Assembly (NCBI GenBank): GCA_019232625.1
Contig: JAFANP010000037.1
Location: forward strand, 1-53,829
Reading direction: 5' to 3'
Length of the DNA stretch: 53,829 nucleotides
Source of the DNA: Alphaproteobacteria bacterium
Lineage (GTDB): Bacteria > Pseudomonadota > Alphaproteobacteria > Sphingomonadales > Sphingomonadaceae
Made by a program: the position numbers and the translations under genes. Below the pieces are notes generated by a model that was not told the origin of the DNA, did not search any database, and saw only the letters and a list, made by a program, of their open reading frames with translations. This document shows, in pieces, positions 25,669 through 36,253 of the stretch. The number at the start of each line of letters is the position of its first letter. The stretch's first letter is position 1.

Positions 25669-26732
25669 TTGGCCGCCGCCGCCGCCGCCGAGCGATGCGC
25701 GGCGATGTTGTCGAGATCCTCGATGATCTTGCGGGTGAGGTCTTCGCGGACCATTCGGGCGGCGACCCGGATGGCGTTGGCGACCCCTTTCTCGGTGGCG
25801 CCGCCGTGGCTCTTCACGACGAGACCGTTGAGGCCGAGGAAGACCGCGCCGTTATGGTTGTTGGGGTCGAGATGGTGGCGCAGCAGCTCGGTGGCCGGCC
25901 GCGAGATGAGGAAGCCGATCTTGGAGCGCACCGAGCTCTGGAAGGCGCGGCGGAGAAGATCGGTGACGAAGCGGGCGGTGCCCTCGAGCGACTTGAGCGC
26001 GATGTTGCCCGAGAAGCCGTCGGTGACGACGACGTCGACGTCGCCGCGCGACAGCTTGTCGCCCTCGATGAAGCCGTCGAACCGCATGCCGAGATAGTCG
26101 GCGTCCCTCAGGATGGCCGCGGCTTCCTTCAGCTCGTCGGTCCCCTTCATCTCCTCGGTGCCGATGTTGAGCAGCTGCACCCGCGGCCGCTCCAGGTCGA
26201 GGATCACCCGGGCGTAGGCGGCGCCCATCACCGCGAACTGGACGAGGTTGCGGGCGTCGGATTCGGTGTTGGCGCCGAGGTCGAGCATCACGAGGTCGTT
26301 CGAGCCGAGCGTCGGAAGCAGCGCCGCGAGCGCCGGCCGGTCGATCCCGGGCATGGTCCTCAAGGCGAGCTTCGCCATCGCCATCAGCGCGCCGGTATTG
26401 CCGGCCGAGACCGCGGCCTGGGCGTCGCCGGCCTTCACGGCGGCGATGGCGCGGCCCATCGAGGTGGTCTTGGCGCGGCGGATCGCCTGGCTCGGCTTGT
26501 CCTCGGCCGCGATCACGTCGTCGCAGTGGACGATCTCGGCGATGCCGGCCAGGCCGTCATGGGCGGCGAGCTCGCGCTTCAGCGCCGGCCCGTCGCCGAA
26601 CAGGAGGAACGAGAGGTCGTCGCGCCGGCGGTAGGCGAGCGCAGCGCCGGCCAGCATCACGGCGGGCCCCACGTCGCCACCCATCGCGTCGATTGCGATA
26701 CGTGGCGCGCTGCCCACCTTACTCCTCTCCAC
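25665..26732 (-). CDS. plsX: Phosphate acyltransferase PlsX
   Basis: PlsX makes acyl-phosphate from acyl-ACP, feeding PlsY in phospholipid synthesis. The 355-residue protein has [19 protein letters not shown] at the N-terminus, then [22 protein letters not shown] and [32 protein letters not shown], and [17 protein letters not shown]. All are family signatures. It is followed by fabH with a four-base overlap and preceded by rpmF, the classical lipid-gene neighbourhood. Confidence 0.97.
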
Positions 26733-32909: not shown

Positions 32910-34676
32910 CTACCCGGTCACCGCCGCATAGTCGAACAATCTGAACCGATAACGCTGCTGGGCGCGGATGTTGGCCGCAAGCCTGCCGTGCAGCCCGTCG
33001 TCCCAGCCTCCCCAGCGGGTGATGAACGCCTCCGCTGCGGCGCGGTCGCCGCCTTCCTGGAGCGCGATCACCTGCTTCAGCAGGTCGCCGACGGCGGCGT
33101 GGTAGCGATCATAGTCGATCGACAGCCTGGCGGTCGCGGGGTCGAAGCTGAGCACCTTGCGGTCGAGGAACCAGTTCATCTGCATGAGCTGCATCATGTT
33201 GTAGGGCTGCTCGCGCCGCGGCCTGTTGTTCTGGAGGGTCCTCAATATCCCGCTGGCATAGAGCGAGCGGAGCTGGTCGGCGGTGTAATAGCCGCGCTGC
33301 TGGAGCGCCTTGCCGACGTAGAGCGAGACGAGATCCGCCTTCATCTCCTCGAGCAGGCCGGCATCGGCGCCGAGCGCGGTGTTGAGCTCGCGTCCGTCGC
33401 GGGTGGTGTCGGGGCCGAGATAATGGCCGACCTCGTGCCACAGCGTCCGGTAGAAACCGGAGTCGGCGGTGAGATGGGGAACGAAGCCGGGCGCCACCGC
33501 CGCGCTCCACACGTCCCCCGAGCCTTTGAAGATGTCGGGATTGCGCATGATGTTGGCGCGCAGCAGGATGGTGCTGCCGTAGCGGGCGGCGGAATAGGCC
33601 TCGTTGGGGAGGTTGGTGGCGGTATTGCCGCCGCGCGTCTGGCCGAAATCGGCGACGACGTCGTAGACTCCCACCGGGATGTTCTCGATCACCTGCTTGT
33701 GCCGATCGTAGGGCAGGCTGTCTTCCAGCGCCTGCATCCCCTTCATCGCTTGGCGGAGTGCCGCCGATTCGGCGTTGCGGGTGGCGAGAAGGCTGAGCCC
33801 GTAGAAGGTGCGGGTGCCGTAAAGCTCGTCGTCATAGGTTTCGTAGGCGCCGATCTGGGCGTTGAGGTTCTTGAACCGGCCCGTGATCCACGCCGCGTCG
33901 CCGCTCTCGTAATCGTCGGAAAGCAGGTCCCGCGCGCGGTTGCGCAGATAGCGGGCGAACTGCCAGTCCGAAGCCTCGACCGAGTCGGCCGCCTCGTTGA
34001 GCAGGGCGTGGCTTCGGACCATCTCGTCCGCATAAGCGAGCGAATAGGGGACGGCGTAGAGCGTCGCCCGATCGGGCGCGCGGTGAAGCGCCTCGATCCG
34101 CTGGCGCAGGCCCGGGTGAAGCGTGTCGAGCACCGGATATTGGCGCAGCTTGGCGAGGTCGCGCTTCAGCACCGCCAGTTCGGCGCGGCGGACGACCGAG
34201 CGAAGGTCGGTGAGGCGGGCGCTCTCGGCGGGATGGGCGGCGAGATAGGCGTCGAACTCCGCCCGGGTGAGGCCCCAGGGGTAGACGTTCTTGCCCGGCG
34301 GCGCGTCGGGCACCGCCAGGAAGGGCTCGCGGCCGTTGGCGAGGTTGGTCGCGATCGGCCCCTGGTTGAGCCGGTAGAGGCGCTGCAGAGCGCGCCCGTC
34401 GGCATCGGTGCGGCGGAACAAGGCGGCGCGGGCGACCCGCGCATCGCGGTGGCGCTGCTGCTCGTAGATATCCTGGAAGATGCGGCCGACCTCGATCAGC
34501 TTCGCCACCGCCGTGCGCTCTCCCGCCGAGAGATGGTCGAGCGACGGCGCGAGGCGGATCGTCTGAGTCTTGTCGAGCACCTCGCGCACCTGGTCCGCCG
34601 ACCATTCGCGCGGCGCCTGCGCAGCGGCCGGCGCGACCGCGATCAGCGCGGCAAGGGAATAAGCGAGAGCCTTCAC
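32910..34676 (-). CDS. Secreted zinc metallopeptidase, DPP III (M49)-like
   Basis: A 588-residue protein with a signal peptide (MKALAYSLAALIAVAPAAAQ). The zinc site is LWHEVGHYLGP (HExxH) with a later Glu-Asp motif LLEEMKADLVSLY, which recalls the M49 family (dipeptidyl peptidase III). VGVYDVVADFGQTRGG and GFVPHLTADSG also fit that family. The start is chosen as GTG 34676 because GGAGG lies five bases upstream; the GTG at 34682 leaves no spacing. The nested inverted-repeat element begins 72 bases upstream. Confidence 0.85.
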   Translation of the reverse strand: MKALAYSLAALIAVAPAAAQAPREWSADQVREVLDKTQTIRLAPSLDHLSAGERTAVAKLIEVGRIFQDIYEQQRHRDARVARAALFRRTDADGRALQRLYRLNQGPIATNLANGREPFLAVPDAPPGKNVYPWGLTRAEFDAYLAAHPAESARLTDLRSVVRRAELAVLKRDLAKLRQYPVLDTLHPGLRQRIEALHRAPDRATLYAVPYSLAYADEMVRSHALLNEAADSVEASDWQFARYLRNRARDLLSDDYESGDAAWITGRFKNLNAQIGAYETYDDELYGTRTFYGLSLLATRNAESAALRQAMKGMQALEDSLPYDRHKQVIENIPVGVYDVVADFGQTRGGNTATNLPNEAYSAARYGSTILLRANIMRNPDIFKGSGDVWSAAVAPGFVPHLTADSGFYRTLWHEVGHYLGPDTTRDGRELNTALGADAGLLEEMKADLVSLYVGKALQQRGYYTADQLRSLYASGILRTLQNNRPRREQPYNMMQLMQMNWFLDRKVLSFDPATARLSIDYDRYHAAVGDLLKQVIALQEGGDRAAAEAFITRWGGWDDGLHGRLAANIRAQQRYRFRLFDYAAVTG

Positions 34677-34748
34677 GCACACCTCCGATCCTGTCGCGAG
34701 CGACCTTGGCAGGTGAAATCCGCTTAGGAAATGGCGGATTTGCAGGCG

Positions 34749-35050
34749 CTAGGGTCCGTACTCGATACCGGCAACGGCCGTGACGGAGTCGAGTATGGGT
34801 CAGGGCGAGGAGCGAGGAGGGAGCGATGCTGACGCATCGTGACCGACGAGGGACGAAGCCCTGGCCCATAATCGGCCCGCCGCCCTGAGCGGCTGCTGCA
34901 AGCAGCCAGCCGAAGGGCGGTCGCCCGGAGAAGGCCGCCGGCTACGTCGAATGGCTTGTCCGGGCAACCAGCCCGGCCTGCGCCATCCTCCTTGCCGGCG
35001 GCCTTCTCCGGGCGATCCCGACCATTGCCGGTATCGAGTACGGACCCTAG
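34749..35050. repeat. 302-bp nested inverted-repeat element (MITE-like)
   Basis: Both ends carry a perfect 26-bp inverted repeat (34749-34774 and 35025-35050), each ending in CTAG. Inside is a second perfect 22-bp inverted repeat (34921-34942 and 34994-35015), a 12-of-13 inverted pair (34794-34806 and 34858-34870), and hairpins at about 34824-34840 and 34889-34907. No reading frame is convincing. The left end is 72 bases before the M49-like gene and the right end 9 bases before the beta-lactamase-like gene. CTAG at both ends fits insertion at a CTAG target, as known for IS630-type elements. Confidence 0.8.
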
Positions 35051-35059
35051 GCTGCGGCC

Positions 35060-36253
35060 ATGATCCGGCGCCTCTCTCTTTTCCTGCTCCCGCTCGCCGC
35101 GGCCTGCGCGACGCCCGCGCCGCCGGCCGCCCCGCCGGCGGCGGCGAGCTGGGCCTGGGCTACGTTCGACGCGCGCGGAGTCCGCGCCGCCGGGGCGTCC
35201 GGCCTCGCCGACCGCGCGAACGGCCGCGTCCTCACCATCCGCGACCCGGTCCGCATCGCCTCGATCACCAAGCTCCACGTCGCCTTGGGCGCGATGCGGC
35301 TGGTCGAGGCGGGCAAGCTAGACCTCGATCGCGACGTTTCCGACTATCTCGGCTGGACGCTGCGCAACCCCGCCTTCCCGGATGCGCCGATCACGCTCCG
35401 CCTCCTCCTCTCGCACCGCTCCAGCATCCGCGACGGCATCGATTACTGGCTGATCCCCGCCACCGGCCGACTCCAGGATTCCCTGCGCGACCCGAAGGCC
35501 TGGGACGCCGCGCACCGCCCGGGCACCTATTTCCAATATTCCAACCTCGGCTTTCCGGTGGTGGCGAGCGTGATGGAGGCGGCGACGGGCGAGCGGTTCG
35601 ACGGCCTCATGCAGCGCCTGGTCTTCACGCCGCTGAAGCTGGACGCGTGCCTCAACTGGACCACCTGCAGCGACGAGACGGTGGCGCGCGCCGTCGTCCT
35701 CTACGGGATCGACGGAAGCGTCCGGAAGGACGACCTGCGCGGCCGGCGCCCGGACTGCCCCGGCGTCGCCGCGCCCGACGGGGGCTGCGACCTCACGGGC
35801 TACAGGCCCGGCACCAACGGCGCGATCTTCTCGCCGCAGGGCGGGCTGCGCATCTCGATCGCCGACCTCGCCAAGGTCGGCGGACTGCTCCTCCGCCGCG
35901 GCCGGCTCCCCGACGGCTCCCGCTTCCTCTCCGAGGCGAGCCTCGAGGAGATGGAGCGGCTCCACTGGCGGTTCGACGGGGCGAACGGCGAGACGGAGGA
36001 GCATTTCTATTGCGGCTACGGCCTTGCCGTGCAGCGCCTCGCCCAATGCCCGCCGGCCGACGACCCGTTCGGCGACGGCCGCCCGCGGCTGGGCCATGCC
36101 AGCGAGGCCTACGGCCTTCGCGGCGGCCTGTGGATCGACCCGGCGAGCGGCCGCGGCATCGCCTATTTCGCCACCGGCCTCGCCGACGACCCGCCGCGCG
36201 GCCGCTCCTCCTACCGTGCCATCGAGGAATGGCTGGCGGCGAAGCTCCGCTAG
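35060..36253 (+). CDS. Beta-lactamase-family serine hydrolase (lipoprotein)
   Basis: A 397-residue enzyme of the class C/EstB-like group. A lipoprotein-type signal is visible (LAAAC, Cys16). The active-site Ser is in SITK (Ser68-Lys71), the Tyr in FQYSNLGF (Tyr160-x-Asn162), and a third motif is LGHASEAYGLRGG, where the usual HxG is altered to HAS. It is more likely an esterase or D-amino-acid hydrolase than an antibiotic lactamase. The start codon lies 9 bases from the right end of the 302-bp element, so the element may supply or block its promoter. Confidence 0.88.
   Translation: MIRRLSLFLLPLAAACATPAPPAAPPAAASWAWATFDARGVRAAGASGLADRANGRVLTIRDPVRIASITKLHVALGAMRLVEAGKLDLDRDVSDYLGWTLRNPAFPDAPITLRLLLSHRSSIRDGIDYWLIPATGRLQDSLRDPKAWDAAHRPGTYFQYSNLGFPVVASVMEAATGERFDGLMQRLVFTPLKLDACLNWTTCSDETVARAVVLYGIDGSVRKDDLRGRRPDCPGVAAPDGGCDLTGYRPGTNGAIFSPQGGLRISIADLAKVGGLLLRRGRLPDGSRFLSEASLEEMERLHWRFDGANGETEEHFYCGYGLAVQRLAQCPPADDPFGDGRPRLGHASEAYGLRGGLWIDPASGRGIAYFATGLADDPPRGRSSYRAIEEWLAAKLR

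Follow-up and report, generated by a model that had tools for sequence, protein, structure and literature searches.

The window analysed here, a stretch of 53,829 nucleotides from a member of the Sphingomonadaceae, holds between two genes a 302-bp segment of nested inverted repeats, and the question that this locus raises is whether such a segment is a transposon, a structured nucleic acid or both and, if it moves, whose transposase moves it. On its left, at 32910-34682, the minus strand carries a zincin-like gene (PF18818 scores 24.5 bits, below the cut-off of 27.5), and on its right the plus strand carries a PF00144 serine hydrolase gene (35060-36253). The segment at 34749-35050 is a MITE, a non-autonomous transposon, of a family found in Sphingomonadaceae: it is short, bounded by terminal inverted repeats (TIRs) and without a transposase gene, and its relatives occur in multiple copies at different sites, with empty sites preserved in some genomes.

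Within its CTAG borders the element is laid out as a left arm, a small middle hairpin and a right arm (Table 1). An earlier note, made from the letters alone, had described perfect 26-bp inverted ends, CTAG at both borders and a distance of nine bases to the next start codon, and all of this is borne out: the terminal arms (34749-34774 and 35025-35050) match perfectly over 26 bp, and nine bases separate the right end at 35050 from the ATG at 35060. The internal 22-bp inverted pair it described is the right-arm pair, in which a perfect 22-bp stem can be followed by eye, and the 13-bp pair is present as the left-arm stem but is not perfect, one T/G mismatch leaving 12 of 13 positions paired. The RNA of the element strand folds at -216.2 kcal/mol (z -15.1) and the DNA at -120.7 (z -13.3), and because 0 of 200 dinucleotide shuffles reach the RNA energy of the element, the fold is not a product of chance. 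A simple scan of 34600-35150 found no promoter-like or terminator-like sites. Among 4227 Rfam models none matched the element, and a known Rfam RNA was rejected as its identity, the single match (E 0.99) falling outside it. A second GAGCGATGC in the window, at 25690, is probably there by chance.

Table 1. Parts of the element and its insertion point, in window coordinates.
Feature	Position	Strand	Remarks
Whole element including CTAG borders	34749-35050	.	302 bp
Left TA, interpreted as the first half of a 2-bp target duplication	34750-34751	.	
Left terminal inverted repeat GGGTCCGTACTCGATACCGGCAA	34752-34774	+	Outer part IS5/IS427-like
Left arm	34794-34870	+	Stem 34794-34806 with 34858-34870
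Tip hairpin GAGGAGGGAG / CGATGC TGAC GCATCG / TGACCGACGAG	34814-34850	+	Three tandem G.A motifs between Watson-Crick pairs
REP-like hairpin insert, ~34 nt, inside small middle hairpin	34883-34917	.	~270-bp copies lack the insert
Right arm	34921-35015	+	Looks by eye like a degenerate, inverted left arm lacking the G.A tip
Right terminal inverted repeat	35025-35047	-	
Insertion point, the downstream gene's CTAG...ATG stretch	35047-35062	+	CTAG 9-10 bases before ATG common to three element-free orthologs
Right TA, second target-duplication copy	35048-35049	.	

The genome search that the earlier note had called for revealed a multi-copy family, not a single-copy sequence. By BLASTN, the 302-bp sequence matches 23 of 60 genomes, own included, at least three of which (G002, G022 and G031) have a 34-nt REP-like insert as their sole match. 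A covariance model built from 29 copies found matches in 16 of 26 genus genomes, own included (E<=1e-4), and, under stricter filters, in 26 of 119 family genomes representing 23 of 96 genera (E<=0.01). Full copies elsewhere measure ~265-275 bp, and the window copy is longer because its middle stem contains the ~34-nt REP-like hairpin, identical or near-identical units of which stand free in G031, G002, G006 and G022. The own genome carries, in addition to the window copy, a 167-nt copy with one arm (C60), a partial match by BLAST (C7) and short matches on C41 and C3. For quantitative comparisons we used 114 copies, these being best-strand places chosen by hand with opposite-strand and very short matches left out (e.g. 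L173, L174, L176, L178, L182 and L183), and a further set for which 56 best-strand matches were chosen out of 128, truncated or weak ones being left out, and from which 4 identical to earlier copies were removed to leave 52. Of 12 short copies (<245 nt, alignment A2 only), 11 keep the left-arm stem and lose most of the right arm. Two matches overlap in G156 (L095), where one copy may have gone into or next to another. Sphingomonad-type copies also occur in a record named Bacillus sp. 2B10 (L334, L337 and L341; GC 0.67-0.68), which is probably mislabelled or contaminated. Searches for carriage on plasmids (queries: 39 nt of the L318 tip and the whole window element), on phages (the L305 element) and on viral contigs (the tip pattern) gave no match.

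Mobility is supported at the locus itself. Among 20 hydrolase loci compared, own included, the fetched flank contains the peptidase gene in four: the own locus, L061, L062 and L064. The last three are the relatives found to keep the gene pair, and the empty CTAG sites that the earlier note had proposed to look for are found in all three: the element is absent, and CTAG stands 9-10 bases before the ATG. L061 is the clearest case, its left flank also aligning, and L062 has a second CTAG farther upstream. A second insertion precedes a sodB-like gene in G016: the two conserved flanks are separated there by 381 bases, and in G002, G005 and G018, which lack the element at this place, by 91, 232 and 57 (distances from BLAST block ends, spacers inspected by eye). 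Junctions point to the same target. Across the 114 copies, TA abuts the left end in 63 (with 11 more one base off) and the right end in 66 (with 5 more), against a background of 1.4%, and a pyrimidine at -2 in 93 and a purine at +2 in 100 extend the target to YTAR. TA is found on both sides, in the main register, at 36 of 114 junctions, which is about the number expected for independent sides, and many copies are one-sided. The CTAG of the empty sites fits a TA duplication, but the identical sequence would result if the target were cut between T and A and not duplicated. Together, the multi-copy family, the empty sites and the junction statistics support the earlier note's claims of mobility and of a CTAG/TA target.

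Insertion at stop codons also seems common. TAG or TAA codons formed at junctions of the 114 copies end a frame open for at least 90 codons in 72 of 147 cases, compared with 66 of 294 control frames. An IS630 element of G024 (L108:974-2026) is inserted at a CTAG from which the upstream frame takes its stop codon, and the ends of this element resemble some MITE ends. As for start codons, 38 of the 114 copies have one within 40 nt of their right end alone and 7 have one equally close to their left end alone (both in 8, none in 57, 4 skipped), or 36 right and 7 left after clustering, and in the 52 further copies the counts are 11 right and 8 left (none in 27, 6 skipped). An orientation bias of the element towards start codons was therefore dropped, the bias of the first set (38 vs 7) being absent in the second (11 vs 8).

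Which transposase recognizes the ends? The earlier note had proposed an IS630/Tc1-type MITE, and the CTAG/TA target does fit IS630, although a TA target is common to IS5/IS427 as well. To compare ends directly, a library was drawn from 12 IS630 elements, found by domain and chosen by hand out of 35 loci scanned (IS630 identity by NF033545), and 16 IS5 elements, 10 found by domain and 6 by a pattern from the window element's own end. This pattern, CTAGGGTCCRNACYC, matches 49 of 397 family genomes; since the reversed pattern also matches 17 of 397, once each, single matches are weak, and the IS claim rests instead on inverted pairs round a transposase. Such GGGTCC-ended pairs, 850-874 bp apart, occur in G075, G362 and G029 and enclose an IS5-family transposase in two frames (NF033580, with PF13340 and PF01609; of five frames tested, two score slightly below the NF033580 cut-off), defining IS elements of 844-868 bp. 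When the 228 arms of the 114 copies were compared with the library, 120 matched an IS end at p<=0.001, where 0.23 would be expected. At p<=0.002, 61 copies are IS5-like, 17 are IS630-like and 36 match no library end; of the 61 IS5-like copies, 59 owe this assignment to IS5 elements picked up with the pattern from the window element's own end, L156 and L162 being the only copies that match IS5 elements found by protein domain.

The arms of the window copy are IS5-like (13/18, p 0.002; for L046 the match is 18/18), and the TIR shared with an autonomous element comprises the outer ~14-18 bases, not all 26, the IS having been found by the pattern from the window end. Against the 12 IS630 elements, by contrast, the same arms give p 0.67 and 0.86. 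Within the own genome, the sole PF13358 (IS630) domain found is that of L109, whose fetched stretch contains no TA-flanked pair of ends and no GGGTCC end, so that the IS630-type transposase with the same ends that the earlier note had suggested looking for did not turn up there. One possible end, TAGAGTGAGTCCTC at L109:1372, was noted in this stretch, and no partner end was found for it. PF13358 is found in 8 of 26 genus genomes and in none of the element carriers G004, G005, G006, G008, G011, G016 and G025. On the side of IS5, no GGGTCC-ended pair of IS size was seen in the own genus among the places listed, and PF13340 gave no match in the own genome at E<=1e-10. IS630 was rejected as the source of the window copy's ends, the GGGTCC-ended IS5 elements providing a fitting counterpart, and the IS427 group of the IS5 family is the likely source. 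Members of this group captured in Paracoccus are described as 832-865 bp long, with 13-21-bp repeats and two overlapping ORFs, and with direct repeats mostly of 2 bp (PMC3281130). The GGGTCC-ended elements agree with that description in size, short repeats and overlapping frames, and a 2-bp duplication, if the TA is read as one, would fit it as well (PMC3281130).

The proposal of an IS630/Tc1 origin nevertheless holds in part, for it fails for the window copy and finds support in its sisters, 17 of which have IS630-like ends; the IS630 element at a CTAG in G024 has the ends CTAGAGTCTTTCCG. Two genomes (G005 and G159) each carry both IS5-like and IS630-like copies, and 9 of the 52 further copies, 3 of them from the record labelled Bacillus, are identical by eye with the IS630 end L219 over its outer 16 bases, GAGCGGTTTCCGATCA. 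As a description of the element itself, an IS630/Tc1-type MITE is very improbable. To follow the two end types through the family, a tree was built from the cores of 74 full-length copies, with labels assigned at p<=0.012 (42 IS5, 19 IS630, 13 without label). On this tree the IS630 label has to change three times, with well-supported branches forcing three changes, and end labels overall need 12 changes compared with a shuffled mean of 28. End type thus mostly follows the core clade, and end switching is therefore rare. Nothing of the MITE core was seen in the IS5 and IS630 elements inspected.

The arms that make up the core differ in sequence among copies and yet keep their pairing. Over 29 copies and 88 pairs, 95.4% of cells are paired, double changes affect 64 of the 88 pairs as against 41.2 in shuffled alignments, and the covariation score is 0.474, compared with 0.151 when shuffled and at most 0.103 when the structure is slid, slid structures pairing at 45% or less. 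Covariation extends to all three long stems. It could be argued that the arms stay complementary only through mutual correction by template switching, with no selection on the structure, and mismatches in the 74 copies bear on this idea, counts being weakened by shared descent and misalignment. Those in the terminal stem are about balanced (G.T 74, A.C 64), as expected for a strand-blind DNA process, and equally as expected if a transposase needs both ends alike, that is, if two DNA ends must match. The left-arm stem, however, has G.T far in excess of A.C (78 vs 10), an excess due in part to inheritance within one lineage, and the skew of the right arm runs the opposite way (39 vs 79), which fits a right arm that is an inverted relative of the left arm. 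Moreover, correction between arms would make Watson-Crick pairs, whereas the mismatch-rich tip of the left arm is kept in sequence and recurs in other phyla. We consider the template-switching account very improbable and favor selection on the folded interior.

This tip is the most distinctive part of the fold. The end of the left arm reads GA-G-GA-GG-GA-G, then CGATGC, a loop and GCATCG, and finally T-GA-CC-GA-C-GA-G; read antiparallel, it forms three tandem G.A motifs split by Watson-Crick pairs, followed by a G.U pair and the stem. ViennaRNA, unprompted, predicts the identical ladder of one- and two-pair steps. A tip is present in 80 of 114 copies, the other 34 having no clear tip, and among the 80 the GA/GA arrangement is found at the first, second and third motif in 61, 62 and 42, at a fourth place in 22, and the G.T pair in 65. 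Column identity is 0.75 for the group of tip pairs, against 0.52 for the terminal repeat and 0.52-0.54 for the arm stems, and the small middle hairpin is conserved even better than the tip (0.84 over 10 columns). The tip is also strand-specific in its stability: in the window copy the tip strand folds at -30.5 kcal/mol (z -4.5) and its complement at -21.2 (z -2.5), and for L318 the values are -32.1 and -17.9. In a longer tip piece from L305 the ladder is present and is no more stable than shuffles (z -0.69, 48/200 as low). Retention of the hairpin in most copies of the family suggests that it has a job.

The tip also appears outside the family. Scanning a genome collection with GCGATGCN{2,8}GCATCGTGACCGACG matched at least 120 stretches, and the 80 listed include two Muribaculaceae MAGs, a Bacteroidales MAG, a Verrucomicrobiia MAG and two Aureimonas. 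The tip score is 20-21 in 13 of 14 loci examined (21 positions scored, about half of them fixed by the patterns), the exception being L312, cut at a contig end, with a score of 13; as seven genomes contribute all 14 loci, these do not count as independent of one another. Tip matches number 16 in the Bacteroidales MAG and 3 and 2 in the Muribaculaceae MAGs, and a slightly longer pattern did not match the Verrucomicrobiia MAG. Inspected by eye, the elements in Muribaculaceae, Bacteroidales and Verrucomicrobiia are bounded by their own inverted ends. In the Bacteroidales MAG, 15 of the 16 tips have a GAAACTGTTTAAATTT-type end nearby among the matches listed, and no IS-sized pair was seen among those listed of the 61 occurrences of this end (at most 1 mismatch). 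A match in Glycomyces without the flanking bases is probably due to chance. With the tip intact, L305, L325, L382 and L423 score 22.8, 23.0, 40.0 and 19.9 bits, respectively, in the sequence profile, and with the tip masked none of them gets a score; whole-element homology across phyla was therefore dropped as a claim, and the cross-phylum claim is confined to the tip. Judged from sequence, the tip recurs in inverted-repeat elements with other ends in Bacteroidota and in a Verrucomicrobiota MAG, where errors in MAG binning are possible.

Do these properties mark the element as primarily a structured RNA gene or leader whose mobility is incidental? Covariation in all three long stems, the G.A ladder predicted on one strand, the tip in other phyla and, in the first set, the nearness of right ends to start codons would all agree with such a role. 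The neighbours, however, are unrelated (43 clusters among 45 downstream proteins), the sites are found empty, the ends are transposon-like, the orientation bias was not repeated in the second set and no Rfam family matches the element, so that a primary RNA gene is unlikely. We consider it quite probable instead that the element is a MITE with IS5/IS427- or IS630-type ends whose interior is selected as a strand-specific folded module, be it RNA or single-stranded DNA. An IS5/IS427-type transposase, supplied in trans, would have cut the element out at its inverted ends, and the element would then have inserted at the CTAG nine bases before the hydrolase start codon, duplicating the TA. Selection would keep the interior as the folded module with its stacked tandem G.A motifs, and the family may have persisted by changing which transposase its ends match. 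It is possible, if somewhat doubtful, that what is truly selfish or useful here is the tip itself, which would act as a signal in RNA or ssDNA form and would have passed between phyla inside the inverted ends of whatever transposase was available (IS5/IS427, IS630 and others in Bacteroidota).

In ordinary MITEs, selection keeps the ends and the interior decays. Here it is the ends that vary by lineage, while most copies retain an internal hairpin that is found again in other phyla. If this reading is true, there is a structured nucleic acid, as yet uncharacterised, on which bacteria or their transposons depend and for which a partner could be fished directly, and the family would offer a testable case of a non-autonomous element that switches transposase family.

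Comparison with known repeat elements brings out both kinship and difference. ERIC and Correia (CREE) elements use a TA target, and REP elements consist of a conserved hairpin that is read on one strand. To our knowledge, neither ERIC nor CREE has been reported to have an interior common to several phyla or the ends of two transposase families. The window family also differs from both in sequence and length, and it differs from the IS5 family and its IS427 group in having no transposase. No literature on this MITE family was found in a search whose coverage left out most subscription journals. REP elements are described as GTAG- or CGTC-tagged units of 20-40 bp (PMC3733652); the present element, of ~270 bp and with long IS-like inverted repeats, is set apart from REP/BIME by size alone, and only inside the window copy has a short sphingomonad REP-like unit been inserted. 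In Porphyromonas gingivalis, MITEPgRS/MITE464 and BrickBuilt are described as combining IS5-type ends with a Bacteroidota MITE, and the window MITE resembles them in its IS5-like ends (PMC4596501). ERIC and Correia MITEs, finally, are characterized as intergenic and present in many copies, with transcripts that form stable stem-loops, and the window family resembles them in being intergenic, many-copy and endowed with stable stem-loops (PMC10969869).
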